The position numbers were made by a program, and so were the translations under genes. The notes beneath the pieces were generated by a model that made no database searches, was not told where the DNA came from, and worked only from the letters and a program-made list of their open reading frames with translations. From Acidimicrobiales bacterium (lineage in GTDB: Bacteria; Actinomycetota; Acidimicrobiia; Acidimicrobiales; MedAcidi-G1): DNA of 53,229 nt. Each line of letters starts with the position of its first letter. Position 1 is the stretch's first letter. The stretch lies in contig JAERSW010000010.1 in assembly GCA_016845305.1 (NCBI GenBank), positions 1-53,229 on the forward strand, given 5' to 3'. Below, piece by piece: positions 10,425-53,229 of this stretch.

Positions 10425-11532
10425 GGGGAACCGGGAACCGCCCGCAGGCCGCCGCGCTGGTGCTGTCCGACGGCGAGGTCTTCGAGGGCGAGGCCATCGG
10501 CGCCGCGCCGACCGACGGCGTGGCCACCGGCGAGGTGGTCTTCAACACGGTGCTGTCCGGCTACCAGGAGGTCATCACGGACCCGTCGTACGCCGGGCAG
10601 ATCATCACCTTCACCGTCTCGCACCTCGGCAACTACGGCGTGAACGACGAGGACCACGAGAGCCGACGGCCCTTCTGCCGAGGCGTGGTGGTCCGCGACC
10701 TGGCCCGGCGACGCAGCAACTGGCGAGCCACCGACGACCTGGACGGCCTGCTGCGGGCCCACGGGGTGCCCGGCATCGCCGGGATCGACACCCGCCGACT
10801 GACCCGCCACCTGCGCGACGCCGGAGCCATGCCCGGGGCGTTCGGCACGGCCGACGAGGCCACGCTGGCCGCCGCCGCTGCCGCCGAACCGGGGACCGAC
10901 GGGCTCGACCTGGTGGCCACGGTGACCCGGGACGCCGCCACCACCGTGCCGTCCACCGGGGGCGGGCGACGCATCGTGGCCTTCGACTTCGGGATCAAGG
11001 CCACCATCGTCCGCCACCTGGCCGGCCTCGGCGAGGTCACCATCGTCCCGGCGTCGACCAGCGCGTCGGACGTGCTGGCCCTCGAACCCGACGGGGTCTT
11101 CCTGTCCAACGGCCCCGGTGACCCGGAGCCCCTGGTGGGCATCCGGACCGAGATCGCCGCGCTGCTCGGCGAGGTCCCCGTCTTCGGGATCTGCCTCGGG
11201 CACCAGCTGCTGGCCGGCACGCTCGGCGCCGAGACGTTCAAGCTCCCGTTCGGCCACCACGGCGGCAACCACCCGGTCCGCAACCTGGCCACCGGTGCGG
11301 TCGAGATCACCAGCCAGAACCACAACTACTGCGTGGCCGAGGGCTCGCTCCCGTCCGCCGAGCTGACCCACGTCAACCTCAACGACAACACCGTCGAGGG
11401 CATCCGGTGCCGCGACGTCCCGGCCTTCAGCGTCCAGTACCACCCGGAGGCCGGCCCCGGCCCCCACGACAGCCGCTACCTGTTCGACGAGTTCGACCAG
11501 CTGATGGCCCGATGCCAGGGGAGTGCCGCCTG

Positions 11533-36406: not shown

Positions 36407-37384
36407 ATGCGCGCATGGCAGGTCCACGAACTGGGTGATCCGATCGACCGGCTGGTCCTCGACGAGGTCGGGGCGCCGGAACCGAAGGCCGGTGGGGTGG
36501 TGGTGGCCTCCCAGGCGGTCGGCCTGGCCTTCCCCGACGTCCTGCAGGTGCGGGGCGAGTACCAGGTGAAGCCCCCGCTGCCCTTCGTGCCGGGCAGCGA
36601 GACGGCGGGCACGGTGGTGGCCGTCGGCGAGGGCGTGGACGAGGCGCTGGTGGGGCGACGGGTGGTGGCCCTCGGCGGGGGCCTGTCCGAGCAGGTGGCC
36701 CTGCCCGCCTCCTCGGTGTTCGAGGTGCCCGACGCTCTCTCGTCGGCGAAGGCGGCGGCCATCCCCATGAACTACTGCACCACCTGGTTCGCCCTCCACG
36801 ACCGGGCCCGGCTCCAGGCGGGGGAGACCCTGCTGGTCACCGGTGCCTCGGGTGGCGTGGGCTCGGCGGCCATCCAGCTGGGGCGGGCCGCCGGCGCCCG
36901 GGTGATCGCCGTGGCCGGCGGGCCGGAGAAGGTGGCGGCGTGCGAGGCCCTCGGCGCCGACTCGGTCATCGACCATCGCGAGGTCGACGACCTGGTCGAC
37001 GAGGTGCGGACCCTGACCGACGGGCGGGGCGTGGACGTGGCCTACGACCCGGTGGGCGGCGACGTCTTCCAGCAGGTGCGGCGGTGCATGGCCTGGGACG
37101 GGCGCCTGCTGGTCATCGGCTTCGTGGCCGGGATCCCGGAGCTGGCCACCAACCACGTGCTGCTCAAGAACTACTCGGTGGTGGGCGTCCACTGGGGGGC
37201 GTCGCTGGCCCGTGATCCGGAGTCGCTGGGCCGCCAGGTGCGGTCGGTGTTCGACCTGGCCGAGGCCGGTGCGGTCGACCCCCTGCTCCATCCGCCGTAC
37301 GCCTTCGAGGAGGCCCCGCGGGCCCTGCAGGACATCTACGACCGGCGGGTGGTGGGCAAGGTGGTGGCCGAGATCCCGGCCTGA
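36407..37384 (+). CDS. NAD(P)H:quinone oxidoreductase-like zinc-independent MDR protein
   Basis: A 325-residue medium-chain dehydrogenase/reductase. It has the GroES-like N-domain (MRAWQVHELGDPIDRLVLDEVG; PFVPGSETAGTVVAVGEGV), the Rossmann loop LVTGASGGVGSAAIQLGRAAGA and YDPVGGDVFQQVRRCMAWDGRLLVIGF. No catalytic or structural zinc cysteines are seen, which points to the quinone oxidoreductase/crotonyl-CoA reductase side of the family; the true substrate is unknown. The gene lies between pheT and the arg operator, and its stop is 15 bases before the long palindrome. Confidence 0.85.
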   Translation: MRAWQVHELGDPIDRLVLDEVGAPEPKAGGVVVASQAVGLAFPDVLQVRGEYQVKPPLPFVPGSETAGTVVAVGEGVDEALVGRRVVALGGGLSEQVALPASSVFEVPDALSSAKAAAIPMNYCTTWFALHDRARLQAGETLLVTGASGGVGSAAIQLGRAAGARVIAVAGGPEKVAACEALGADSVIDHREVDDLVDEVRTLTDGRGVDVAYDPVGGDVFQQVRRCMAWDGRLLVIGFVAGIPELATNHVLLKNYSVVGVHWGASLARDPESLGRQVRSVFDLAEAGAVDPLLHPPYAFEEAPRALQDIYDRRVVGKVVAEIPA

Positions 37385-37399
37385 CCTCGATCTATACGG

Positions 37400-37448
37400 C
37401 CATCCGCATACTGATGTTGTATCAGTATGCGGATGGTGGCATACTGAT
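37400..37448. promoter_or_regulatory. Palindromic operator of the arg cluster with embedded promoter
   Basis: CCATCCGCATACTGAT (37400-37415) and its exact reverse complement (37421-37436) flank GTTGT: a perfect 16-bp inverted repeat. The core half-site GCATACTGAT recurs at 37439-37448, so three half-sites occur (37406-37415, 37421-37430 inverted, 37439-37448). A promoter TTGTAT (37417-37422), 17 bases, CATACT (37440-37445) overlaps them, and the argC ATG is 6 bases later. ArgR, encoded in the cluster, is the obvious candidate ligand; the sequence is not a textbook ARG box. The stretch is AT-richer than anything around it. Confidence 0.75.
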
Positions 37449-37451
37449 CGG

Positions 37452-38555
37452 ATGCCCGCCAGCCAACCGTCCCCCCGGCACCGGATCGCCGTCATCGGCG
37501 CGTCCGGGTTCACCGGTGCCGAACTGCTCCGGCTCTGCGCCGCCCATCCGACCTTCGAGGTGGTGGTGGCCACCGGCGAGTCCCAGGCCGGCACGGCGGT
37601 CGCCGACCTGTACCCGAGCCTGGCCGGCCACTACGGCGGCCTGACCTACGCGCCGACCGACGAGGCGGCCGTCGACGGCTGCGACGTGGCCTTCCTCGGC
37701 CTCCCGCACGGCGCCTCCCAGGCCCTCGTGCCCGACCTGCTGGACCGGGTGGGCCACGTGGTCGACCTGGCCGCCGACTTCCGTTTGCGCGACGCCGGCC
37801 TCTACCCGACCTGGTACGGCGAGCCGCACGCCGCACCCGCCCTGCTCGACGGGGCGGCCTACGGGCTCCCCGAGCTCTTCCGGCCCGGCCTGGCGGGTGC
37901 CCGCCTCGTGGCCGCCGCCGGCTGCTACCCGACGGCCGCCTCCCTGGCGCTGGCCCCGTTCCTCCGGGCCGGCCTGGTCGAGCCGGCCGGCCTGGTGGTC
38001 GATGCGGCCAGCGGTGTGTCGGGTGCCGGACGGCCCCCGAAGCCCAACACCACCTTCTGCACCGTCGACGAGGACTTCACCGCCTACGGCCTGGCCGGCG
38101 GCCCCGGCGACGGTCTCGGACACCGGCACACCCCGGAGATGGAGCAGGTGCTCGGCACTGGCGCCGACGGGGCCGTCCTGGCCACGGCCGGCGAGGTGTC
38201 GGTGCTGTTCACCCCCCACCTCGCGCCGATGAACCGGGGCATCCTGGCCACCTGCTACGCCCGGCCCACCGACCCCGGCCTCGACTCGGCCGGGGCCCTC
38301 GCCGTGCTGGCCGACGCCTACGCCGGAGAGCCCTTCGTGGTGGTCGATGAACGGTCCCCGTCCACCAAGGCCACCTTCGGCTCGAACGCCGCCCACCTCA
38401 GCGCCCGGGTCGACCCCCGGACCGGCCTGCTCGTCGTCCTGTCGGCCATCGACAACCTCGTCAAGGGCGCCTCGGGCCAGGCCGTCCAGTGCGCCAACGC
38501 CCTGCTCGGCCTCGACGAGACGACCGGCCTGTCGACGGTGGGGGTGTACCCGTGA
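37452..38555 (+). CDS. argC: N-acetyl-gamma-glutamyl-phosphate reductase ArgC
   Basis: NADPH-dependent third step of arginine synthesis. The 367-residue protein begins RIAVIGASGFTGAELLRL (Rossmann loop) and carries catalytic Cys158 in AAAGCYPTAA, DLAADFRLRD and the C-terminal LSAIDNLVKGASGQAVQCAN. The ATG is 6 bases after the CATACT -10, so the message is likely leaderless and begins inside the operator region. First gene of argCJBDFRGH; overlaps argJ as GTGA. Confidence 0.97.
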   Translation: MPASQPSPRHRIAVIGASGFTGAELLRLCAAHPTFEVVVATGESQAGTAVADLYPSLAGHYGGLTYAPTDEAAVDGCDVAFLGLPHGASQALVPDLLDRVGHVVDLAADFRLRDAGLYPTWYGEPHAAPALLDGAAYGLPELFRPGLAGARLVAAAGCYPTAASLALAPFLRAGLVEPAGLVVDAASGVSGAGRPPKPNTTFCTVDEDFTAYGLAGGPGDGLGHRHTPEMEQVLGTGADGAVLATAGEVSVLFTPHLAPMNRGILATCYARPTDPGLDSAGALAVLADAYAGEPFVVVDERSPSTKATFGSNAAHLSARVDPRTGLLVVLSAIDNLVKGASGQAVQCANALLGLDETTGLSTVGVYP

Positions 38556-39730
38556 GCGTCACCGCCGTGCCGGGCTTCGTGGCCGCCGGATCCACGTGTG
38601 GCATCAAGCCGTCGGGCGCTCCCGACCTGGCCATGGTGGCCACCGCCGACGGGGCGCCCGTCACCGCGGCCGGCGTGTTCACCTCCAACCTGATGACCGC
38701 TCCGCCGGTCCTGGCCTGCCGGGACCACCTGGCGTCCACCGGCGGCCGAGCCGCCGCGGTGGTCCTCAACAGCGGCAACGCCAACGCGGCCACCGGGGCG
38801 CCGGGTCGGGCCGACGCCGAGGAGATGTGCCGGCTGACGGCCGAGGCCGTGGGCTGTAGCACCGACGAGGTGCTGGTCTGCTCGACGGGCTGGATCGGCT
38901 TCCCGCTGCCCATGGATGCCATCGCCCCGGCCATCGGGCCGTTGGCCACGGCGATGTCTCCCGAGGGCGGTCCCGACGCCGCCCGGGCCATGATGACCAC
39001 CGACACCGTCCCCAAGGCCACCGTGGTGACCGGCACGACGGCCGACGGCGGGACCTTCACCGTGGGCGGCGTGGCCAAGGGCGCGGCGATGCTCGAACCG
39101 AACATGGCCACGATGCTGGCCGTGGTCACCACCGACGCCGCCGTCGACGCGGCGACGGCCACCGACCTGCTCCGCTCCGCCGTCGGAGTGTCGTTCAACT
39201 GCCTGACGGTGGACGGCGCCGAGTCCACCAACGACACGGTGCTGCTGCTCGCCTCGGGCACCGCCGGCCCGGTCGACGAGGCCGCCCTCGGCACCGCCCT
39301 GGCCGACGCCTGCCGGGACCTCGCCGTGCAGATGGCCGACGACGCCGAGGGCTCCACCAAGACCGTCTTCCTGACCGTCACCGGGGCGACCAGCGACGCC
39401 GAGGCCGCCAAGGGCGCCCGGGACACCGCCAACTGCCAGCTGGTGAAGTGCTCCTGGTACGGGCAGGACCCCTACTGGGGCCGGATCGCCGCCGAGATGG
39501 GCGCCGCCGGTATCGCCTTCGACCCCGACGCCATCACGATCGCCTACGGCGGGCAGGTGGTCTACGCCGCCGGCGCCGTGCAGCCGGTCGACGAGGACGC
39601 CCTGTCCGCCCACATGGCCGGTCGGCGGCTCGACCTCGACGTCGACCTCGGCCAGGGCGACGGCACGGCCTGGATCGTCACCACCGACCTCAGCCACGCC
39701 TACATCGACGAGAACATGCGGACCTCATGA
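38552..39730 (+). CDS. argJ: Bifunctional ornithine acetyltransferase / N-acetylglutamate synthase ArgJ
   Basis: Recycles the acetyl group, so the cluster does not need argE. The 392-residue precursor self-cleaves at NMATML, making Thr187 the new N-terminal nucleophile of the beta chain. Upstream, GGVAKGAAMLEPNMATML differs slightly from the family KGSGMIxPNMATML (Ala-Ala for Ser-Gly). The LNSGNANAATG oxyanion region and C-terminal [14 protein letters not shown] are present. GTG start in the argC stop; stop overlaps argB as ATGA. Whether it also makes N-acetylglutamate cannot be judged from sequence. Confidence 0.96.
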   Translation: MSVTAVPGFVAAGSTCGIKPSGAPDLAMVATADGAPVTAAGVFTSNLMTAPPVLACRDHLASTGGRAAAVVLNSGNANAATGAPGRADAEEMCRLTAEAVGCSTDEVLVCSTGWIGFPLPMDAIAPAIGPLATAMSPEGGPDAARAMMTTDTVPKATVVTGTTADGGTFTVGGVAKGAAMLEPNMATMLAVVTTDAAVDAATATDLLRSAVGVSFNCLTVDGAESTNDTVLLLASGTAGPVDEAALGTALADACRDLAVQMADDAEGSTKTVFLTVTGATSDAEAAKGARDTANCQLVKCSWYGQDPYWGRIAAEMGAAGIAFDPDAITIAYGGQVVYAAGAVQPVDEDALSAHMAGRRLDLDVDLGQGDGTAWIVTTDLSHAYIDENMRTS

Positions 39731-40695
39731 CCAGCCACGCCCCTGCTCCCGACGCCTCCAGCGGCCTGTCCGACTTCTCGCCCGAGCGGCGGGCCGCCGT
39801 GCTGGTCGAGACCCTGCCGTACATCCAGCGGTTCGCCGGCTCGATCATCGTGGTCAAGTTCGGTGGCAACGCCATGGTCGACGACGAGCTGGCCGCCCGC
39901 TTCGCCGAGGACGTGGTCCTCATGCACTCGGTGGGCATCCGGCCCGTCGTGGTGCACGGCGGGGGCCCCCAGATCGGCGCGCTGATGGACCGGCTCGGCA
40001 TCGAGTCGGAGTTCCGGGACGGCCTGCGGGTCACCGACGCCGAGACCCTGGACATCGCACGGATGGTCCTCGTCGGCAAGGTCAACCGGGACATCGTGTC
40101 CGGTATCAACCGGCATGGCCCCCTCGCCGTGGGCCTCTCGGGCGAGGACGCCGGCCTGATCCGGGCCTCGGCCCGCAACCCAGAGCTGGGCTTCGTCGGC
40201 GACGTCGAGTCGGTCAACCCGGCCATCATCGAGCGGCTCCTGGCCGAGGACCTGATCCCCGTGGTGTCGACCATCGGCGTGGATGTGGCCGGACAGGCCT
40301 ACAACATCAACGCCGACACGGTGGCCGCCGCGGTGGCGGGCGCGCTGGGCGCCGAGCGGATCCTCTACCTCACCGACGTGGAGGGCCTGCTGGCCGACGT
40401 CGACGACCCCTCGTCCCGGATCTCGCGGATCGACCTGTCGGGGCTCGACGCCCTCATCGCCGACGGCACGGTCAGCGGGGGGATGATCCCCAAGGTGCAG
40501 GCCTGCGTGGACGCCGTGGAGGCCGGCGTGGGCTCGGCGCACATGGTCGACGGGCGGATCCCCCACGTGGTCCTGCTGGAGCTGTTCACCGACGTGGGCA
40601 TCGGCACGATGGTCCTGCCCGACGGCGGCGTGGCCGCCGACGGACGGGGCGTCGAGGGCCCGGACGGGACCGGCGACGACGGGAGCGCGTCATGA
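39727..40695 (+). CDS. argB: Acetylglutamate kinase ArgB
   Basis: Phosphorylates N-acetylglutamate, usually the arginine-feedback step. The 322-residue amino acid kinase has [11 protein letters not shown] (about 43-53), [14 protein letters not shown], the [11 protein letters not shown] segment, [30 protein letters not shown] and [14 protein letters not shown]. The N-terminal helix ahead of the kinase core ([19 protein letters not shown]) is the feature associated with arginine-sensitive hexameric enzymes. The C-terminus has a 30-residue Gly/Asp-rich extension. It overlaps argD by 4 bases. Confidence 0.97.
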
Positions 40696-41975
40696 GCGGC
40701 GCATTGGCCGCCACGACGGGCACCGGGACCGGTCGGGAGCGGTGGGACCGGATCATGGTCGGCAACTACGGCACCCCGCCGGTCACCTTCGTGCGGGGGT
40801 CGGGGACCGAGCTGTTCGACGAGGAGGGCCGGCGGTACCTCGACTTCCTGTGCGGCCTGGCCGTCACCGGTCTCGGCCACTCCCACCCGCGGATCGCCGC
40901 GGCGCTGGCCGAGCAGGCCACCACGCTGCTCCACGTCTCCAACCTGTTCGTCACCGAACCCCAGCTCGAGGTCGCCGAACGCCTCGACGCCCTGGTGCGG
41001 TCCGGTGCCCCCACCGGGGACAGCGCCGGAGACAGCGCGGGGGCCGACGCCCCGGGACGGGTGCTGTTCCAGAACTCGGGCGCCGAGGCCAACGAGGCCG
41101 CCATCAAGATGGCCCGCAAGTACCACGGACGGGGCCGCCACGAGGTGGTCTCCGCCTTCCGGTCGTTCCACGGCCGGACCCTGACCACGCTGGCCGCCAC
41201 GGGCCAGCCCGAGAAGCACGAGCCGTTCCAGCCGCTGCCCGAGGGCTTCCGGCACGCCGCCTGGAACGACCTCGACGCCCTGGAGGCCGCCCTGGCCCCC
41301 GAGGTGGGCGCCGTGCTGCTCGAGCCGCTGCAGGGCGAGGGCGGGGTCAACACCGCCGACGTCGAGTACCTCCGGGGCGTCCGGCGGATCTGCGACGAGC
41401 GGGGCCTGGTGCTCATCATGGACGAGGTCCAGACCGGCCTGGGTCGGACCGGCGCCTGGTTCGGCTTCCAGCACGCCGGCATCCGGCCCGACGTGGTCAC
41501 CATGGCCAAGGGCCTCGGCAACGGGGTGCCCATCGGCGCCGTGTGGGCCACCGCCGAGGTGGCGTCGGCCTTCGGGCCCGGCGACCACGGCTCGACCTTC
41601 GCCGGCCAGCCTCTGGCCGCCTCGGCGGCCCGGGAGGTCCTCCGGGTGCTCGAGGAGCTGGACGCTCCGGCACTGGCCACCGCCCGGGGCGCCGAGCTGA
41701 CCGCCCTGCTGGAGGCCCTCGACGGGGTGACCACGGTGCGGGGCCTCGGCCTGCTGCTGGCCGCCGAGCTGGACCCCGCCGTCCTCGATGGCCGGACCGG
41801 CCCCGAGGTGGCCCGGGCCTGTCTGGACGCCGGCCTCGTCGTCAACGGCGTGACGCCCACTGCCCTGCGGCTGGCCCCGCCGTTGACCGCGTCGTCCGAC
41901 GAGTTGGCCGAGGGCGTGTCGATCCTCGCCGGGGTCCTGGCGGCCGGAGGCCCGGACGAAGGGGGAGGAGCCTGA
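40692..41975 (+). CDS. argD: Acetylornithine aminotransferase ArgD
   Basis: PLP-dependent class III aminotransferase (427 residues) making N-acetylornithine. It has [71 protein letters not shown] and the PLP lysine in [14 protein letters not shown] (about residue 272). A short Gly/Asp/Ala insertion ([15 protein letters not shown], about 110-124) lies in the small loop before the PLP phosphate site. The TGA overlaps the argF ATG as TGATG. Confidence 0.96.
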
Positions 41976-42937
41976 TGCGGCACCTGCTGGAGGTCGACGA
42001 CCTCACCACCGACGAGTTGGTCCGGGTGCTGCACCTGGCCGCCGATCCGGCGCCGCCGCGGGTGCTCGACGGTCGGGGCATGGCGCTGGTGTTCGAGAAG
42101 CCGTCGGCGAGGACCCGCAACTCCATGGAGATGGCCGTCTTCCAGTTGGGCGGCCATCCCATCTACATCCAGGCGGCCGAGGTGGGCCTCGACGTCCGGG
42201 AGTCCGTGGAGGACGTGACCCGGACGCTCGCCTCCTACCACGCCTGCATCGGGGCCCGGACCTTCGCCCACGCCACCGTCGAACGGATGGCCGCCGAGGA
42301 CCTCGTCCCGGTGGTCAACATGCTGTCCGACGCCGCCCACCCCCTCCAGGCCCTGGCCGACGTCCTCACCCTGGTCCGGGAGTTCTCCGGCCCGGACGTC
42401 GCCGACTGGCCCGCCGGCGACCTGCTGGCCGGACGGACCGTGGCCTACGTGGGCGACGGCAACAACGTCTTCCGGTCCCTGGCCCTGGCCGCCGGAATGC
42501 TGGGGGCCGAGGTCCGGTTCACCGGGCCCGCCGGCTACCGGCTGCCCGACGCCGACCGGGACCGGCTGTCCGCGGCCGGCCTGTCGATCACCGAGGCCGA
42601 CGTCGCCGCCGAGGCGGTGGCCGGCGCCGACGCCGTCTACACCGACGTCTGGACGTCCATGGGCCAGGAGGACGAGACCGCCCGGCGCCTCGTCGACTTC
42701 GAGGCCTACCGGGTCGACGAGGCCCTCATGGAGGCCGCCGGCCCGCAGGCCGTCTTCCTGCACTGCCTGCCCGCCCACCGGGGCGAGGAGGTCACCGACG
42801 GCGTGGTGGACGGCCCGGCCAGCCGGGTCTGGCCCCAGGCCGCCAACCGGATGCACGCAGCCCGAGGCCTGCTCGCCTGGCTCCTCGGCGAGGTGGACCA
42901 CGCCGGGGAGGGCCATGTCGGGGAGGAATCGCCATGA
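41975..42937 (+). CDS. argF: Ornithine carbamoyltransferase ArgF
   Basis: Makes citrulline from ornithine and carbamoyl phosphate. The 320-residue enzyme has the ornithine-side motifs [12 protein letters not shown] and [15 protein letters not shown], which separate it from PyrB, and [12 protein letters not shown]. The carbamoyl-phosphate motif reads [11 protein letters not shown]: the usual S-T-R-T-R is S44-A-R-T-R48, a substitution at the second position. Both arginines and the second Thr are kept, so activity is expected. GGGGGAGGAG precedes the start. It overlaps argR by 4 bases. Confidence 0.95.
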
Positions 42938-43395
42938 GCAAGCACCAGCGGCAGCACCGGATCACCCGGCTGCTGGTCGACCACGTGGTGGCCAGCCAGG
43001 AGCAGCTGGTGGGCCTGCTCGCCGACGAGGGCATCGCCTCGACCCAGGCCACGGTGTCGCGCGACCTCGACGACCTCGGAGCCGTCAAGGTCCGGGTGCC
43101 GGGTGGCGACAGCGTGTACGCCATCCCGGAGCACCCGGCCGACCGGAACGTGCCCACCGACCAGCTGCGACGGGTGCTGGGCGAGTGGGTGGTTGACGTG
43201 GCCTCGTCGGGCAACCTCGTGGTGCTGCGGACCCCGCCCGGTTCGGCCCACGTGGTCGCCTCGGCGCTGGACCGGACGGGCCTCGAGGGCTCGATCGGCA
43301 CGGTGGCCGGGGACGACACCCTGATGGTGGTGGCCGCCGAAGAGGTCAGCGGTGCCGAGTTGGCCGACCGGGTCCGGGACCTGGCCGGACTCTGA
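42934..43395 (+). CDS. argR: Arginine repressor ArgR
   Basis: A 153-residue arginine-responsive regulator. The N-terminal winged helix-turn-helix (about 1-70) has [18 protein letters not shown], with recognition-helix SRDL at 42-45. The C-terminal hexamerisation and arginine-binding domain (about 85-153) has the [12 protein letters not shown] motif. The gene sits inside the operon it presumably controls, so repression would be autogenous; the palindrome at 37400-37448 is the natural target. Confidence 0.96.
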
Positions 43396-43485
43396 GCGGC
43401 GACCGGTCCCCAGGGGCCGGGCCGGAGACGACAGCGCGACCGACAGCGAGAACGAGAACGAGACGGAAGCAGGGACGGAAGAGAC

Positions 43486-44709
<1,224 letters not shown>

Positions 44710-44713
44710 CCCG

Positions 44714-46096
44714 ATGGCGACCCTGTGGCACGGCCGGTTCGAGGGCGGTCCCAGCGAGGCCCTCCAGGCCCTGAACGACAGCCTGCCCTTCGACCGGCGG
44801 ATGTTCCGGGAGGACGTGGCCGGCTCGCGGGCGCACGTGCGGATGCTGGCCCGGGTCGGCCTGCTGTCCGATGCCGACGCCGAGGCGGTGCTGGCCGCCC
44901 TCGACGCCACCGAGGCCGAGCTGGCCGACGGCACCTTCGCCTTCGCCGAGGCCGACGAGGACGTCCACACGGCCGTGGAGCGGCGGGTCACCGAGCTGGC
45001 CGGCGACGCCGGGGCCCGGCTGCACACCGGCCGGAGCCGCAACGACCAGGTGGCCACCGACCTGCGGTTGTGGACCAAGCGGGAGCTGGCCGAGCTGGCC
45101 GACCTGGTGACCCGGTTCCAGGCCACCCTGGCCGCCGTGGCCGACCGGGCCGGCGACGCCTACCTGCCCGGCTACACCCACCTCCAGCAGGCCCAGCCGG
45201 TCCTGCTGGCCCACCACCTGCTGGCCCATGGCTGGGCCCTGGCCCGCGACGTGGACCGGCTGCTGGACGCCCGGACCCGGACCGACGTGTCACCGCTGGG
45301 TGCCGGGGCCCTGGCCGGCTCGTCGCTGCCGCTGGACCCCGACGCCACGGCGGCCGACCTGGGCTTCGCCGCCCGGTTCGAGAACTCCCTGGACGCCGTG
45401 TCGGACCGGGACTTCGTGGCCGAGGCGCTGTTCGCCCTGGCGCTACTCGGCGTCCACCTGTCGCGGATCGGCGAGGAGCTCATCCTCTGGTCGACCGACG
45501 AGTTCGGGTTCGTGGGCCTCGACGACGCCTTCTCCACCGGCTCGTCGATGCTGCCGCAGAAGAAGAACCCGGACATCGCCGAGCTGGCCCGGGGCAAGGC
45601 CGGCCGCCTCGTCGGCCACCTGACGGGCCTGCTGACCACGCTCAAGGGCCTACCGCTGGCCTACGACAAGGACCTCCAGGAGGACAAGGAGCCGCTGTTC
45701 GACGCCTGCGACACGGTGCGGCTCACCCTGCTGGCGCTGGACGGCATGGTGTCCACGCTGGTGCTGCACGTGGACCGGATGGCCGAGGCGGCGGACAGCC
45801 CGTACGCGGCGGCCACCGACCTGGCCGAGTACCTGGTGGCCGGCGGGACGCCCTTCCGCGACGCCCACGCCATCGTCGGTGCCCTCGTCCGGGCCGCCCT
45901 GGCCGGCGAGGGTTCGCTGGCCGACCTGGTGGCCTCCGACGAGCGGCTGGGGCCCGACGCCGCGGCCCTGCTGGCTCCCGGCGTGCCCGTCACCCGGCGG
46001 ACCACCCCGGGCGGAGCGGGGCCGGAACCGGTGGCCGTCCAGAAGGCCCGGTTCGCCGACCGGCTGGACGCCCAGCGGTCCCGGATCGGCGCCTGA
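44714..46096 (+). CDS. argH: Argininosuccinate lyase ArgH
   Basis: Final step, releasing arginine and fumarate. The 460-residue aspartase/fumarase-superfamily protein has LWHGRFEGGPSEALQALNDSL, the HTGRSRNDQVATDLRLW block, YLPGYTHLQQAQPV and the signature GSSMLPQKKNPD (about 276-287) with the catalytic serine loop. It follows argG by 4 bases and ends the arginine cluster. The C-terminal 35 residues are Pro/Gly-rich but family-like. Confidence 0.97.
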   Translation: MATLWHGRFEGGPSEALQALNDSLPFDRRMFREDVAGSRAHVRMLARVGLLSDADAEAVLAALDATEAELADGTFAFAEADEDVHTAVERRVTELAGDAGARLHTGRSRNDQVATDLRLWTKRELAELADLVTRFQATLAAVADRAGDAYLPGYTHLQQAQPVLLAHHLLAHGWALARDVDRLLDARTRTDVSPLGAGALAGSSLPLDPDATAADLGFAARFENSLDAVSDRDFVAEALFALALLGVHLSRIGEELILWSTDEFGFVGLDDAFSTGSSMLPQKKNPDIAELARGKAGRLVGHLTGLLTTLKGLPLAYDKDLQEDKEPLFDACDTVRLTLLALDGMVSTLVLHVDRMAEAADSPYAAATDLAEYLVAGGTPFRDAHAIVGALVRAALAGEGSLADLVASDERLGPDAAALLAPGVPVTRRTTPGGAGPEPVAVQKARFADRLDAQRSRIGA

Positions 46097-46103
46097 TCGA
46101 CCC

Positions 46104-46487
46104 GTGGGCTACACGCAGGACATCCGGATCCGCTACGGCGAGGTCGACGCCCAGGGGGTGGTCTTCAACGCCCACTACCTCGCCTACCTCGACGACGTCT
46201 CCGACACGTGGCTGCGGACCCTCGACGGCGACTTCGAGGAGACCGGCTGGGAGATCATGCTGCGGCGGGCCGACCTGACGTGGCACGGCTCGGCCGGCAT
46301 CGGCGAGGTCCTTACCGTCACCGCCGAGGTGGTCCGGTGGGGGACCACCTCGTTCGACGTGGCCTTCGAGGCCCGGGTCGGCGACCGGCTCGTGCTGGAG
46401 GCCACGGTGTACTACGTCGGGGTGAGCGTGGGCGACCACGTCCCCATTCCGCCGCCACCGGCCATCCGGGCCCATCTGGGTGGCTGA
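46104..46487 (+). CDS. Hotdog-fold acyl-CoA thioesterase (4HBT family)
   Basis: A 127-residue single hotdog domain. The motif RYGEVDAQGVVFNAHYLAYLDDV (10-32) carries the catalytic Asp15 typical of YbgC/4-hydroxybenzoyl-CoA thioesterases. It probably hydrolyses short or aromatic acyl-CoA; the substrate cannot be assigned. GTG at 46104 lies 7 bases after argH and gives the expected N-terminus. Its stop overlaps the Nudix gene by 8 bases. Confidence 0.85.
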   Translation: MGYTQDIRIRYGEVDAQGVVFNAHYLAYLDDVSDTWLRTLDGDFEETGWEIMLRRADLTWHGSAGIGEVLTVTAEVVRWGTTSFDVAFEARVGDRLVLEATVYYVGVSVGDHVPIPPPPAIRAHLGG

Positions 46488-47049
46488 TCCGGACGTGGGC
46501 GACGGGCCGGTGGTCGATCCCCGGCCGTTCGTGGAGGCCGGCCCGACGGGCCCCGAACGCGACCGGATCCTGGCCCTGCTGGACGCCCGGACGGGTCTCG
46601 AGCCCGGGCCGCTGGACCGGACCTGCCGTCCCGGTCACCTGACCGGTTCCGCGTTGGTCGTGGACCCGGCGGACCGGCGGGTCCTCGTCCTCTTCCACGC
46701 CAAGCTCCAGCGGTGGCTGCAGCCCGGTGGCCACGCCGACGGCGACGGCGACCTGGCCCGGGTGGCGCTGCGGGAGGCCACCGAGGAGACGGGGATCGAG
46801 GGCCTGCGGGTCGTCGGCCCCGCCGTGGACCTGGACGTCCACGTGGTCGACCCGCCGTCCGAGGACGCCCACGAGCACCACGACGTCCGGTTCCTGGTGG
46901 TGGCTCCGCCGGGCGCGGTTCCGGTCGGCAACCACGAGTCGGAGGCCCTGCGTTGGGTGGCCGTCGACGAGCTGCCCGGCTTCGGCGCCGACGACGGCCT
47001 GCTGCGCCTGGCCGATCGTGCCCTGGCCCGCCTCGACGGCGGGTCCTGA
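46480..47049 (+). CDS. Nudix hydrolase
   Basis: A 189-residue protein with a central Nudix domain (about 55-180). The box reads GHADGDGDLARVALREATEETGI (84-106): the REATEETGI core with its metal-binding glutamates is intact, but the first Glu of Gx5Ex7REUxEExGU is Gly90. It sits last in a run beginning at argC and converges with the 170-residue membrane protein gene. Substrate unknown; nucleotide-sugar or oxidised nucleotide cleavage is possible. An N-terminal helix (FVEAGPTGPERDRILALLDA) precedes the domain. Confidence 0.85.
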   Translation: MADPDVGDGPVVDPRPFVEAGPTGPERDRILALLDARTGLEPGPLDRTCRPGHLTGSALVVDPADRRVLVLFHAKLQRWLQPGGHADGDGDLARVALREATEETGIEGLRVVGPAVDLDVHVVDPPSEDAHEHHDVRFLVVAPPGAVPVGNHESEALRWVAVDELPGFGADDGLLRLADRALARLDGGS

Positions 47050-47069
47050 CGGAGTGCCCGGTAGGTCGG

Positions 47070-47582
47070 CTACATGTCGCCGGGGTCGAGGCACGACTCC
47101 ATGTCGTTGACCCGGGCGAAGCCGTTCATCCGTTCCAGCACGCTGCCGGCGCCGCTGGGCAGGGCGGTGAGCAGGGGCTTGACGTCGCCCTCGGAGCGGA
47201 GCCGCTCGGCGTGGGCCAGGCGGTCGGCCACGTAGACCTCCCAGTCGGCCAGCCAGTGGGCCACCAGGTCCCGGTCGTCGCCGGCGCCACCGCCGAGGGC
47301 GGCCAGGTCGTCGACCATGGCCCGGACCACCGCCGTGGCGTCGTCCAGGTCGTCGGCCCGGGTGGCGGGATCAGGGGCCGACGCGGCGGTGGGCAGCAGG
47401 GCGACCTCGTCGAGGGCCCGGGCACAGCGCACCTCGGCGGCGGCGGCCCATGCCCGGTCCTCCAGGCGGTCGGGGTTGCCCGACGGGGCGAGGAAGAAGG
47501 CGTAGACCCACAGCACGCCCATGGCGACCACCAGCGCGGCCAGGAAGGCCCGCAGGGCGAGGGTCCGTCGGTTCGTGCTCAC
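47070..47582 (-). CDS. Uncharacterised membrane-anchored protein coupled to the penicillin-binding protein gene
   Basis: I do not recognise this 170-residue protein. It has a short basic N-terminus (STNRRT), one hydrophobic helix at about 8-30 (LALRAFLAALVVAMGVLWVYAFF), then an acidic, helical, presumably extracytoplasmic domain with two cysteines (Cys53 and Cys165) that could form a disulphide. Its GTG overlaps the preceding penicillin-binding protein stop as GTGA, so it is very likely translated with it. That suggests an envelope role, for example an accessory to peptidoglycan synthesis, but this is only context. Confidence 0.75.
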   Translation of the reverse strand: MSTNRRTLALRAFLAALVVAMGVLWVYAFFLAPSGNPDRLEDRAWAAAAEVRCARALDEVALLPTAASAPDPATRADDLDDATAVVRAMVDDLAALGGGAGDDRDLVAHWLADWEVYVADRLAHAERLRSEGDVKPLLTALPSGAGSVLERMNGFARVNDMESCLDPGDM

Positions 47583-50329
47583 GGCGTCACCCACAGTTCG
47601 ACGACGGTCCCGGGTGCCACGACGGCGTTCGGGAGGGGGTCCTGCTTCCAGATCAGGTTGGGCTCCCATTCGGGCTGGTCGGGGTCGGCCACGATGGTCA
47701 CCGCGTAGCCCAGTCCGAGCGACTCCAGCACCGGACGGGCCTCCAGGAGGAGGCGCCAGGTCACGTCGGGCACGTCCACCGGCTCCACCTCTGGCGGCTC
47801 CACGGCCACGTCCACGACCAGCGTGCCCCCCTCGGCCAGGGTGGTGCCCGCGGCGGGGTCCTGCCGGAGGATGGTCCCCGGCTCGGTGCCCGAGGCCTCG
47901 ACCTCGCGGACCTCGGCGATCCAGACGCCGTGGTCGGCACCGGCCAGCAGGTTCCGGGCGTTGGCCAGGGTGAGGCCGACCACCTCGGGGGTGGCGACCA
48001 TCCCCGGAGGCAGCGTCGAGGACGGTGTCGGCGTCCCGCCGGTGGACGGGCTCCCGCCGGGGTTGGCGTCGGGTTCGGCGTCGGCGTCGGGTGCCGGAGC
48101 GGCCGCCTCGGGCATGCCGGGCGCCACCGGAGCGGGCATCACCACCTTGGGGAGGTCGGTGGGGAGGCCCGGGAAGTCCTCGACGGGCAGCCCGACGTGG
48201 GCCGCCTCCATGACGTCCTTCCAGATCATGGCCGGCCAGGTCCCTCCGTAGACCTTCCGCTCGGTGGTGGGGGGGATCATCGGGATCTGCGCCTCGGGGA
48301 AGCCCACCCACACCGCGGCGGTGGCCTGCGGCGTGTAGCCGGCGAACACGGCGTCGGCGTAGTTCTGGGTGGTGCCGGTCTTGCCGGCCGCCGGCCGCTC
48401 CTCCAGCTGGGCCCGCCAGCCCGTGCCCTGTTCGACGGTGCCCTCCAGGATCCAGGTCATGCGGTCGGCCAGGCGGGCGTCGAGCGCCCGGGCCTGGGTC
48501 CGGGTCCACGACCACAGGGTGGTGCCGTCGGCCCGGGTCACCCGGGACACGTAGCTGGGGGCGATGGCCACGCCCCGGTTGGCGATGGTGTGGTAGGCGG
48601 TGGCCATGTCGAGCATCGTGGCGTTCGACGTGCCCAGCACGTTCGAGTTGACGGGCTGGATGGGGGACCGGATCCCCAGGCGACGGGCCATGCTGACCGT
48701 CCGGTTGGCGCCGAGCTCCATGCTGAGCTGGGCGTAGACGGTGTTCAGCGAGCTGCGGGTGGCCCGGATCAGGGTCACCTCCTCGGCATCCGGCGGGGGG
48801 ACGAGCTCGCCTCCGTCGGGCGGATCCCACGACCAGGTGGGGATGGCCTCCAGCTGGTCCACCCGGTCGGCGAAGAGCTGCTCCCGGTCGTGGTCCCACC
48901 GGCGGTTGGCCACCCACTGCGCCAGGTCCACCTCCTGGTAGGTCACCTCGATCTCGCCGTCGCGCTCCTTCTCGATGCGGATGGTCTCGGCATGGCCGTC
49001 GGGGACGTCGGTGTGCTCCTCGCGGAGCCAGAACTGCAGGAGGGCCTGGAGGCCGTGCTCGAAGCGGGCCTCGGTGGCGTCGTGGCCGTTGACGCCGCCG
49101 GTGACCCGCCACACCTTGTTGTCCTCGTCGGCGCCGGGGATCTCGAACTCCAGCACGTTGGGAGCGGGATAGGTGGCGGTCATCCGCCATCCGGCCTCCA
49201 GGGCCGCGGCGAGGGCGACGGGCTTCATCGAGGAGCCGACCTGGCGTCCGGAGCCGACGGCCAGGTTCACCTTGGCGTCCTCGTCGTCGGCGAAGAAGTC
49301 GCGTCCACCCACCATGGCCAGGACCTTGCCGGTGCCCGTTTCCAGGAGGACCACCGCCGCGTCGGGGTGGCCTCGGCCGGCCGGCATGTGGGTCTCGACG
49401 GCCTGCTCGGCCGACGCCTGGAGGTCCAGGTCGACCGTGGTCTCGATGCGGAGCCCGCCCTCGAACAGCAGGCGCTCCCGGACGCCCCGGCTGGCGCCGA
49501 AGGCCGGGTTGTCGAGGAACCAGCGGCGGACCTCCTCGACGAAGTGGCCGGCCGGGTACCGGGTCTCGAGGCGGTTGGTGTACTCCTCGAGGCGGGGCGG
49601 GCTGGCCAGCGCGGCGTCGCGCTGCTCGACGGTGATGTAGTCGTTGGCCAGCATCCGGTCCAGCACCTGGTGGCTGCGCTTCAGGCTCTTGGAGTAGTTG
49701 ACGAACGGGTTGTACCGGCCGGGGAGCTGGATGATCCCGGCCAGCAGCGCGGCCTCCGGCAGGTCCACCTGGGAGATGTCCTTGTTGAAGTACGTCTGGG
49801 CGGCCGCCTTGACCCCGTAGGCGCCGTGGCCGAAGTACACCGTGTTGAGGTACTGGAGGAGGATGAACTCCTTGCTGTACCGGTCCTCGAGGCGGGTGGC
49901 GTACCAGAGCTCCTCGAGCTTGCGGCTGGCCGTCTGCTCCGAGTTCCGGATGATGGCCAGCTTCACGTACTGCTGGGTGATGGTGGAGCCGCCCTGGCTG
50001 ATGCCGCCGGCCTCGAGGTTGGAGCGGGCCGCCCGGACGATGGCCTTGAGGTCCATGCCGTCGTGGACGAAGAAGCGTTCGTCCTCGATGGAGATCACCG
50101 CCTGGCGGACCAGCTCGGGGATCTCGTCGAGCGTGCGGGCGCTGGTGCGGTTCTCGGGCGCCACCAGCGTGGTGATGGGGCGGCCGCGGCGGTCCACGAC
50201 CACCGACGACTCGGCCTGCTCGGGGATGGTGATCTCGAACTCGCGGGCCTCGTAGCGGTAGCAGGAGGTGGCCGTGCACGCGAGCGCCACCAGGGCGCAC
50301 AGGGCGCGGGCTCTCGGAGGCGACGGCAT
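47579..50329 (-). CDS. Class A penicillin-binding protein with PASTA domains
   Basis: A 916-residue bifunctional peptidoglycan synthase. Glycosyltransferase domain about 60-235: catalytic Glu82 in EDERFFVHDGMD and GGSTITQQYVK. Transpeptidase about 320-700: Ser366-x-x-Lys369 in GSSMKP, Ser527-x-Asn529, Lys650-Thr-Gly. The SxxK to SxN distance is 161 residues against about 60 usually, because of an acidic insertion at about 405-515. A Pro/Ala linker (730-775) leads to two PASTA-like domains (778-842 and 852-916). The short hydrophobic N-terminus ends in ACTATSC, a possible lipobox with Cys23. No clear long membrane anchor. It is transcribed leftward, divergent from tyrS. Confidence 0.92.
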   Translation of the reverse strand: MPSPPRARALCALVALACTATSCYRYEAREFEITIPEQAESSVVVDRRGRPITTLVAPENRTSARTLDEIPELVRQAVISIEDERFFVHDGMDLKAIVRAARSNLEAGGISQGGSTITQQYVKLAIIRNSEQTASRKLEELWYATRLEDRYSKEFILLQYLNTVYFGHGAYGVKAAAQTYFNKDISQVDLPEAALLAGIIQLPGRYNPFVNYSKSLKRSHQVLDRMLANDYITVEQRDAALASPPRLEEYTNRLETRYPAGHFVEEVRRWFLDNPAFGASRGVRERLLFEGGLRIETTVDLDLQASAEQAVETHMPAGRGHPDAAVVLLETGTGKVLAMVGGRDFFADDEDAKVNLAVGSGRQVGSSMKPVALAAALEAGWRMTATYPAPNVLEFEIPGADEDNKVWRVTGGVNGHDATEARFEHGLQALLQFWLREEHTDVPDGHAETIRIEKERDGEIEVTYQEVDLAQWVANRRWDHDREQLFADRVDQLEAIPTWSWDPPDGGELVPPPDAEEVTLIRATRSSLNTVYAQLSMELGANRTVSMARRLGIRSPIQPVNSNVLGTSNATMLDMATAYHTIANRGVAIAPSYVSRVTRADGTTLWSWTRTQARALDARLADRMTWILEGTVEQGTGWRAQLEERPAAGKTGTTQNYADAVFAGYTPQATAAVWVGFPEAQIPMIPPTTERKVYGGTWPAMIWKDVMEAAHVGLPVEDFPGLPTDLPKVVMPAPVAPGMPEAAAPAPDADAEPDANPGGSPSTGGTPTPSSTLPPGMVATPEVVGLTLANARNLLAGADHGVWIAEVREVEASGTEPGTILRQDPAAGTTLAEGGTLVVDVAVEPPEVEPVDVPDVTWRLLLEARPVLESLGLGYAVTIVADPDQPEWEPNLIWKQDPLPNAVVAPGTVVELWVTP

Positions 50330-50335
50330 CGGTCC

Positions 50336-50341
50336 AGTCTG
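50336..50341 (-). promoter_or_regulatory. Possible -10 element of the penicillin-binding protein gene
   Basis: On the minus strand CAGACT ends 6 bases before the ATG. It departs from TAnnnT only at the first base, and the spacing matches the other leaderless genes. Confidence 0.35.
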
Positions 50342-50387
50342 GCCCGACGTGCCCCCGGTGGGGCGTCAGCCGGGTGGTTGCAGGCTC

Positions 50388-50393
50388 CATACT
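50388..50393 (+). promoter_or_regulatory. -10 element of tyrS (leaderless type)
   Basis: CATACT, identical to the argC -10, ends 7 bases before the tyrS GTG. The 71-base interval to the divergent gene holds both promoters. Confidence 0.45.
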
Positions 50394-50400
50394 GGTGGGC

Positions 50401-51693
50401 GTGAGCGCGGCGATCCTCGACGACCTGGTGGCACGCGGCCTGGTGCAGGACAGCACCGACGTGGACGCCCTGCGCCGACGCCTCGACGAGGGTCCGGTCA
50501 CCGTGTACTGCGGCTTCGATCCGACGGCCGACAGCCTCCACATCGGGCACCTCGTCCCCCTGCTCCTGCTCCGTCGGTTCCAGGACGCCGGCCACCGGGC
50601 CATCGCCCTCGCCGGTGGGGCCACCGGCATGGTGGGCGATCCCAGCGGCCGGTCCGACGAGCGCAACCTGCTGGACGGCGAGACCCTGACCCGCAACGTC
50701 GACGCGGTGGCCGCCCAGCTCCGGGCCTTCCTCCGCTTCGAGGGCGGCCTCCGGCCGGGTGACGAGCCCGCGCTGCTGGTGGACAACCGGGAGTGGACCG
50801 AGGGGGTGGGGGTCCTGGACTTCCTCCGCGACGTGGGCAAGCACGTCACGGTCGGCACCATGCTGGGCAAGGAGTCCATCCGGGCCCGGCTGGCCGGCGA
50901 CCAGGGCATCTCGTTCACCGAGTTCAGCTACATGCTCCTCCAGGCCAACGACTTCTCCGAGTTGCATGCCCGCCACGGCTGCGAGCTGCAGGTCGGCGGG
51001 TCGGACCAGTGGGGGAACATCACCGCCGGGATCGACCTGATCCGGCGGCGGTCGGCGGCCCCGGCCCACGGCCTGACCGTTCCCCTGGTGACCCGCGCCG
51101 ATGGGGCCAAGTTCGGGAAGACGGCCGACGGGGCCGTGTGGTTGTCGCCGGAGCGGACCCTGCCCTACGAGCTGCACCAGTACTTCGTGAACGTCGACGA
51201 CCGGGACGTCGAGCGGTTCCTCCTCCAGCTGACCCTGGTGCCGGTGGACGAGGTGGCCGACGTGATGGCCGAGCACGGCGACGCGCCGGAGCGGCGCCTG
51301 GCCCAGCAGCGCCTGGCCGACGAGGTCTGCACGCTGGTCCACGGCGAGGACGCCACCCACCGGGCACGTCTGGCGGCCAAGGGTCTGTTCGGGTCCGAGC
51401 CGCCGACCGCCGAGGTGCTCGACGCGCTCCGGGGCGTGGTCCCCGAGACCGAGGTGGCGGCGGCGGTCCTGGCCGGCGGGGAGTCGTTGGTCGAGGTCCT
51501 GGTGGCCTCGGGCCTCTGCTCCTCTCGGGGGGACGCGCGGCGGACGGTGGCCGGCGGGGGCGTCCGGGTCAACGGCGCCCGCCTCCCGGACGATGCGCTG
51601 GCCCTACCGCCGGACGCGGTCGTCGGGGACCGCTTCGTCCTGCTCCAGAAGGGCAAGCGCAACCGGCACCTGCTCATCGTCATCGAGGGCTGA
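50401..51693 (+). CDS. tyrS: Tyrosyl-tRNA synthetase
   Basis: Class I synthetase of the bacterial TyrRS type, 430 residues. It has YCGFDPTADSLHIGHLVPLLLLRRFQ with the HIGH motif (about 46-50), the tyrosine pocket around SYMLLQANDFSELHARHGCELQVGGSDQWGN, and KFGKT (about 237-241) in place of KMSKS, the bacterial norm. A C-terminal S4-like RNA-binding domain covers about 360-430 (SLVEVLVASGLCSSRGDARRTV...GGVRVNGARL). The GTG at 50401 is preferred over an in-frame GTG 27 bases upstream because the latter precedes the -10. No T-box leader is present. Confidence 0.96.
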   Translation: MSAAILDDLVARGLVQDSTDVDALRRRLDEGPVTVYCGFDPTADSLHIGHLVPLLLLRRFQDAGHRAIALAGGATGMVGDPSGRSDERNLLDGETLTRNVDAVAAQLRAFLRFEGGLRPGDEPALLVDNREWTEGVGVLDFLRDVGKHVTVGTMLGKESIRARLAGDQGISFTEFSYMLLQANDFSELHARHGCELQVGGSDQWGNITAGIDLIRRRSAAPAHGLTVPLVTRADGAKFGKTADGAVWLSPERTLPYELHQYFVNVDDRDVERFLLQLTLVPVDEVADVMAEHGDAPERRLAQQRLADEVCTLVHGEDATHRARLAAKGLFGSEPPTAEVLDALRGVVPETEVAAAVLAGGESLVEVLVASGLCSSRGDARRTVAGGGVRVNGARLPDDALALPPDAVVGDRFVLLQKGKRNRHLLIVIEG

Positions 51694-51778
51694 CCGTCAG
51701 CTGAGGGCGTGCCCCGGTCGGGAGGGGTCCGTGGTGCCGGGCGTCACGCTGATTCCGAGGATTTCGCGGTGGCGCGGG

Positions 51779-51807
51779 TTGGGGGGCGTCGGCGCAATGG
51801 ATAGCGT
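51779..51807 (+). promoter_or_regulatory. rRNA promoter P1
   Basis: TTGGGG (51779-51784), a 17-base spacer and TAGCGT (51802-51807). Confidence 0.6.
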
Positions 51808-51835
51808 CTCCCTACCCACGGGAGAGGGGTCGGTC

Positions 51836-51864
51836 TTGACCGGCGCAACCCGCTCCCATAGCGT
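51836..51864 (+). promoter_or_regulatory. rRNA promoter P2
   Basis: TTGACC (51836-51841), a 17-base spacer and TAGCGT (51859-51864). It has the same -10 and spacing as P1, 57 bases downstream. It has the best -35 hexamer seen in the window. Confidence 0.7.
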
Positions 51865-51986
51865 GGGCACCCGCCCAGCGGCAGGTCCGATCGGATCGAA
51901 TCGCTGAAGCGGGTTGAGGGCACCACCGCCGTCATCCGGGTTCGTCCCGGGCGTCTGCGTGTGCCGGGAGGCCGTCGGTCTCCGGG

Positions 51987-52000
51987 TGCTCCTTGAAAAC
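51987..52000 (+). promoter_or_regulatory. boxA-like antitermination site
   Basis: TGCTCCTTGAAAAC closely resembles rRNA boxA elements (E. coli TGCTCTTTAACA; actinobacterial forms with TTTGAGAAC). It is the expected NusB-S10 landing site, about 254 bases before the mature 16S end. Confidence 0.65.
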
Positions 52001-52029
52001 GGGATAGAGGACGAAAAAGCCAGTGCGGG

Positions 52030-52065
52030 CTGTCCACCTGACGATCGCGAGTCGTCGCTGGACAG
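52030..52065 (+). promoter_or_regulatory. Compound hairpin in the pre-16S leader
   Basis: Outer stem CTGTCCA / TGGACAG and inner stem GACGA / TCGTC with a 7-base loop. It lies 30 bases after the boxA-like site. It may be part of the antitermination or processing leader. Confidence 0.4.
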
Positions 52066-52099
52066 ACCCTGAACAATTTCAATTGCACTGACGGACAAC

Positions 52100-52123
52100 G
52101 GTGGCCGACTTCGGTCGACCACC
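52100..52123 (+). promoter_or_regulatory. UUCG-capped hairpin in the pre-16S leader
   Basis: GGTGGCCGAC and GTCGACCACC pair over 10 positions with one C-A mismatch, closed by a TTCG tetraloop. Stable leader structure; function not known. Confidence 0.45.
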
Positions 52124-52253
52124 CTTGGACTGTGCCAGGTCGGACGGGATTGGTGTCCCGATCGGCCTCAGACTCGCGTCGGCAGCTCCCTCGGGAGTTG
52201 TCGCACCACTGATTCGACGGTCGGAACCGCCTCGGCGGCGCCGGCCTGAGATT

Positions 52254-53229
<976 letters not shown>

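Follow-up and report, generated by a model that had tools for sequence, protein, structure and literature searches.

What is the long palindrome that lies directly in front of the arginine biosynthesis genes in this member of the Acidimicrobiales, and which protein, if any, would recognize it? The window, by which we mean the whole stretch of 53,229 nucleotides that was analysed, carries at positions 37400 to 37436 a perfect palindrome of 37 bases, CCATCCGCATACTGAT-GTTGT-ATCAGTATGCGGATGG, which has no strand of its own and was found both by reading the sequence and with a repeat finder. Perfect arms of 16 nt (37400-37415 and 37421-37436) enclose the GTTGT spacer (37416-37420), and a third GCATACTGAT is located at 37439-37448, its centre being 18 bases away from that of the second copy. 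The inverted repeat of 16 bp with a 5-base spacer and the third half-site 18 bases further on, which an earlier note on this DNA had described, were all confirmed in the sequence. The repeat finder also extended the arms to 23 nt at 87% (37393-37415 and 37421-37443) and paired 37421-37430 with 37439-37448 at 100%. By arithmetic from the base composition, about 0.02 perfect repeats with 16-nt arms and a spacer of at most 60 nt would be expected in 53 kb, and the perfect palindrome therefore exceeds chance. An exact scan detected only these three copies of GCATACTGAT in the window, all at the palindrome, as the earlier note had remarked; with up to two mismatches allowed, nine matches were obtained, the chance expectation being 9.06. 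Across all 2,919,501 bases of the genome, GCATACTGAT occurred three times, always at argC, and its reversed control did not occur. Pairs of half-sites near other arginine genes, for which a genome scan had been proposed, were not encountered, as the 10-mer is exclusive to argC in the 2.92 Mb.

The palindrome precedes argC (37452-38555, + strand), the product of which has the Pfam Semialdhyde_dh and dimerisation domains, and which is the first gene of a cluster argC-J-B-D-F-R-G-H. The genes downstream of argC are read as argJ, B, D, F, R, G and H by family and order: the Pfam families that follow are ArgJ, amino acid kinase, class III aminotransferase, ornithine carbamoyltransferase and ArgR, and after ArgR argininosuccinate synthase and a lyase. 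The argR gene (42934-43395, + strand) encodes an arginine repressor of the ArgR/AhrC family, which matched PF01316 and PF02863 above cut-offs, is the one match in this genome (G000), and resembled the arginine repressors in the PDB with a best E value of 5.6e-38. Its TQATVSRDL stretch, which we take to be the DNA-reading helix of a helix-turn-helix, is one residue off the TQATLSRDL of the repressor in PDB entries 3ere, 3fhz, 3laj and 3lap, presumably the M. tuberculosis protein. The sequence GTVAGDDTL of the same protein resembles GTIAGDDTL/I, a motif quoted for corynebacteria in the accessible part of one report (PMC5839063). ArgR was present in 98 of 100 genomes; the two genomes without it had no argC match (G038) or only a weak one (G051), and argC itself was matched in 93 of the 100. 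Two argC matches in one genome were seen in G040 (C34 and C29) and in G088 (C4, at 294063 and 298029). Upstream of the palindrome, a zinc-binding dehydrogenase (Pfam) is encoded on the same strand at 36431-37384. The window ends in a 16S rRNA gene (52254-53229, + strand; Rfam RF00177, 979.4 bits) that is cut off at its 3' end, and an Rfam search of 36900-53229 detected nothing besides this gene.

The DNA upstream of argC was compared among relatives. We used 70 of 95 argC match rows, leaving out 24 weaker rows and the second copy in G040, and added the best 80 of 377 named argC loci, which gave 150 loci. Of these, 126 differed from one another over 180 nt, and after removal of L137 and L149, the sequences of which did not extend far enough, 124 regions, the window included, entered the comparison. 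The named records were mostly Acidimicrobiales, Acidimicrobiia, Acidimicrobiaceae and Candidatus Microthrix, the rest being Actinomycetota and the like, and the 124 regions come from related species and are not independent. Column statistics were calculated on 98 of the 124, comprising 13 regions from the genus (g1), 29 from other members of the family, and 56 from the rest, a few of which may be family members under other names. Judged by this comparison, what has been conserved in front of argC is the actinobacterial ARG box, TTGCAT-N4-ATGCA, and not GCATACTGAT. Within the 84 nt that precede codon 12 of argC, this pattern was matched at 9 or more of its 11 positions in 112 of the 124 regions (31 at 11, 42 at 10 and 39 at 9 positions), and fell below 9 in the other 12, in a set that includes the best 80 of the 377 named loci. 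At the same threshold the reversed pattern was found in 0/124 of these regions, and the true pattern in 0/124 of the adjacent stretches of about 84 nt further upstream. The phylogenetic footprint that the earlier note had called for is therefore there, as an operator conserved in front of argC, but the 10-base half-site is not the element that has been kept.

In the window, the main ARG box is TTGTAT-CAGT-ATGCGG (box A, 37417-37432, + strand; TTGTATCAGTATGCGG), the left half of which also occupies the -35 position. It agrees with the consensus at 9 of 11 positions (37417-37431), 2 being off, and is the best site in the window when both strands are scanned with a matrix derived from the 56 regions outside the family lists, scoring 16.8 bits compared with 9.8 for the next non-overlapping site. 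The palindrome is symmetric about 37418 and box A about 37424.5, which argues that the two are different objects. By eye, six regions from named relatives (L119, L123, L135, L147, L154 and L173) have GTTGCA at the position of box A and lack the right half; most of this group carry a TGCACATAGTTGCA-like sequence, and argC may be controlled differently by ArgR in them. In five others (L146, L153, L155, L156 and L159) a second TGCAT could be seen by eye 10 or 11 bp before the main copy, which looks like an extended layout of another sort.

The earlier note had regarded the half-site as non-standard and had raised the possibility that GCATACTGAT defines a lineage-specific specificity of ArgR. The confinement of the 10-mer to the argC locus in this genome is what such a specificity would lead one to expect; however, the relatives conserve the standard ARG box, the helix of ArgR is of the standard kind with its single residue of difference, and ATCAGTATGC, which is the reverse complement of GCATACTGAT, is contained in the S. 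coelicolor SCO2529 box listed in the part of PMC5839063 that was available. That box, GTCCGTATCAGTATGCGGGA, is in a fragment shifted by ArgR (PMC5839063, Table 1, from the same partial source), and the window is identical to it over the 14 bases of GTATCAGTATGCGG, the core of box A. We consider a lineage-specific specificity extremely improbable, and a new one is not needed to explain the site as we read it. Similarity to Streptomyces extends to the general arrangement, since the argC, argG and argH boxes described in the portions of those papers at hand are likewise TGCAT-N4-ATGCA-like palindromes near arg gene starts.

The third half-site appears to be part of a promoter. The likely -10 hexamer, CATACT (37440-37445, + strand), lies inside it, 17 nt from the -35 position and 6 nt before the ATG of argC. 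Among the relatives, 98 of 124 regions have a -10-like hexamer 6 nt ahead of the start codon, the start having been chosen by a score that rewards this spacing, and the distance from the beginning of the box to the hexamer is 23 nt in 90 of the 112 box-bearing regions (a set that again includes the best 80 of 377 named loci). At this distance the left half-site would coincide with the -35 element and be separated from the hexamer by 17 nt. The first base of the hexamer is C, not T, in the window and in 11 of 13 genus members. A sigma-70 consensus scan of the argC stretch returned 0 promoters, and the assignment of the -35 and -10 elements therefore rests on the relatives; on that footing we agree with the earlier note that the stretch covers the likely -35 and -10. 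Leaderless actinobacterial promoters are described, in the accessible part of PMC3160421, as having a TANNNT-like hexamer that starts about 12 bp before the start codon. The hexamer of the window likewise starts 12 nt before the start, but differs in beginning with C. When box A, the -10 element and the ATG were scored together with the 56-region matrix, the argC site reached 32.4 bits compared with 8.7 for the next site in the window. Operator and promoter would thus be merged here, with one ARG half-site at -35 and another at -10.

From these comparisons, the site is very probably the ArgR operator of the arginine operon, lying over a putative leaderless promoter and serving to repress argCJBDFRGH, which we presume to be co-transcribed. 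Arginine-loaded ArgR would bind box A, perhaps with assistance from the -10 half-site and from a further candidate box (box C, below); the bound repressor would cover the -35 and -10 elements of the leaderless promoter and keep RNA polymerase out, and plentiful arginine would lead to repression of the whole set of genes, argR included. Of the earlier proposal, the operator over the argC promoter and its likely binding by the ArgR that the cluster encodes are upheld by the ARG box in 112 of 124 regions, and the non-standard half-site is not. The site had been correctly noticed but divided into the wrong half-sites; most likely it is an ordinary ArgR operator merged with a leaderless promoter, and some members of the family have it in a modestly elaborated form. 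No ArgR operator in Acidimicrobiales was found in the literature searched, which was represented largely by listings; what is gained here is a comparative view of a putative one in the Acidimicrobiales relatives examined.

A search for other targets of ArgR gave little. With up to 2 mismatches, TTGCATNNNNATGCA was matched 27 + 26 times in this genome, compared with 23 + 25 for the reversed control (53 vs 48), and was not enriched; it had no exact match in this genome. Since the box is not enriched genome-wide over the control, a wider regulon is not supported. The stricter TGYATNNNNATRCR gave three sites, one at argC and two inside long open frames, which from their translations are read as UvrA and FolE. 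Neither the matrix scan of both strands of the window nor the pattern scans of the genome detected a second convincing ARG box. Among 48 family genomes, 25 contained exact TTGCATNNNNATGCA; the matches numbered 39 rows, and 8 of these fall at argC by coordinates. The carA gene was present in 31 of 31 genomes, and the copy of this genome lies in the window at 10451-11509.

The arg genes of Streptomyces usually have a second, contiguous box in tandem, and candidates for additional half-sites are present around box A. Downstream, TGGCAT-ACTG-ATCGG (box B, 37437-37451, + strand) is a possible second box, its centre 20 bp from that of box A, which is the tandem spacing of Streptomyces. Only its left half, which overlaps the -10 element, is conserved; a right half resembling ATGCA (1 mismatch allowed) was found in 0/12 regions of the genus, 2/29 of the other family members and 4/56 of the rest. 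In the parts of the reports available, the arg genes of S. coelicolor are listed with adjoining 20-nt boxes (PMC5839063), and footprinting at argC of S. clavuligerus revealed two 18-nt boxes 2 bp apart (PMC3293853), so that the -10 half-site here corresponds to the would-be left half of a second box at the same 20-bp spacing. Unlike the Streptomyces operators, the right half of the second box is not conserved in the Acidimicrobiales set, and part of this family has an extra half-site that would form an overlapping upstream box at 13 bp. The ARG half-site of E. coli is TGAAT-like. The box pairs of E. coli are similar in being palindromic and overlapping the promoter, and are bound by ArgR with arginine, binding being putative in our case; they differ in consisting of 18-bp boxes 3 bp apart, according to the same partial sources (PMC5839063, PMC3293853). 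AhrC at argC of Bacillus subtilis has two boxes 11 bp apart and one in the coding region, as given in the accessible part of PMC3293853, and has in common with the present site, if the candidate boxes are counted, more than two boxes at argC, whereas the extra candidate here is upstream and overlaps box A.

This upstream candidate is CCGCAT-ACTG-ATGTTG (box C, 37404-37419, + strand), which lies in the left arm of the palindrome with its centre 13 bp upstream of that of box A; footprints of the usual 18 bp on boxes C and A would overlap. A further possible half-site, TATACGG (D, 37393-37399, + strand), precedes the matching half of box A by 33 bp and is weakly supported. With 1 mismatch and one column of slack allowed, and one g5 member left out, the left half of box C was present in 12/12 other members of g1, 6/6 of g2 and 6/6 of g4, and in 0/7 of g6 and 0/9 of g3; outside the family lists it was found in 4/56, about the chance level. 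At one fixed column, the counts were 12/12 for g1, 8/29 for the other family members and 1/56 for the rest. Half-site D was present in 9/12 of g1, 4/6 of g2, 4/6 of g4, 0/7 of g6, 0/9 of g3, and 2/56 outside. Taken in pairs, the 12 other g1 regions had a mean identity of 0.80 for A, 0.69 for C and 0.56 for D, compared with 0.47, 0.57 and 0.54 for the stretches within the operator that belong to no box, and 0.34 for the 60 nt before the operator; C stands out by this measure and D does not. Among offsets 10-36, a self-match at 33 bp took first rank both in the window (16) and in g1 (11.8 of 24, where the mean was 6.7); in g2, g4 and also g6 it came only third, and in g3 it fell short of the mean. 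Of the 56 regions outside the family lists, 14 have a half-site upstream at the 20-bp distance usual for tandem boxes; in its ATGCA form such a half-site was seen in 0/13 of g1 and 0/29 of the other family members.

It is conceivable, although we regard it as rather unlikely, that in the three genera g1, g2 and g4 the extra half-site C, perhaps with D, forms a repeat of the half-sites of A and the -10 at a distance of 33 bp upstream, and that the extended operator so formed, with C overlapping A at 13 bp between centres, allows ArgR either to choose between mutually exclusive sites or to bridge D/C and A/B. Such bridging would span about three helical turns, and either arrangement would make a repression switch that differs from the classical pair of adjacent boxes. 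ArgR boxes overlapping at 13 bp between centres were not met in the ArgR literature examined, parts of which were accessible. An extended operator in part of the family would be a small, testable variation on a textbook repressor.

There remains the symmetry itself. A regulator unrelated to ArgR that binds the 37-bp palindrome would account for a perfect symmetry that is longer than an ARG box and centred elsewhere than box A. The best axis of symmetry is identical in all 13 g1 members (in L012 it is tied with another). The number of paired positions is 16 of 16 in the window and 7 to 12 of 16 in the other 12 members, and the pairs that are kept in the genus are the outer TGCAT/ATGCA half-sites of ArgR together with an inner AT. 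The remaining pairs are at chance in the 12 relatives, with 17/48 inner pairs compared with 15.8 expected and 12/48 outer pairs compared with 13.5 expected, and we consider a different regulator very unlikely. By this comparison the symmetry is mainly that of the mirror-image ARG boxes C and A, and its perfection, which depends on pairs beyond the half-sites that are no more frequent than chance in the relatives, is peculiar to this genome.

The palindrome might alternatively act as an RNA hairpin, a terminator or attenuator, in a transcript that reads in from the dehydrogenase gene before it. The sequence of the window at this site, folded as RNA, gives a strong structure (-32.8 kcal/mol, z -5.4, and z -8.7 against simpler shuffles), and so does that of L047, a family member of genus g2 (genome G034) with a long hairpin-like palindrome at its argC operator (z -7.5). 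The folds of the 12 other genus members, however, have z values of -0.3 to -4.4. Over the 13 g1 sequences, 67.8% of positions were paired compared with 66.5% in shuffles, the covariation score was reached by 88 of 500 shuffles, and compensatory changes that would keep an RNA stem were not found. A terminator consensus scan gave 0 sites, and a transcription start at the ATG would leave the palindrome untranscribed from the argC promoter. We rejected the hairpin element, as stem pairing is not kept above chance in relatives, and think that there is very little likelihood of such a role.

With the ArgR operator as the preferred reading of the site, we lean toward the view that the palindrome was perfected by local mutation, for example by template switching between near-repeats, or by coincidence, without selection for symmetry. 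This would be compatible with the operator, and is favoured by the gap between the 16 pairs of the window and the 7 to 12 of its 12 relatives and by the chance level of the pairs outside the half-sites. Against it, L047 belongs to another genus and has 13 of 16 pairs and a near-perfect direct repeat of 33 bp; these features might point to selection or to some process that recurs.

The region before the operator varies among the g1 members, with the operator kept. The end of the dehydrogenase gene, for example, was absent from this position in L005 and L010-L014, and was seen there in the window and in L006-L009.
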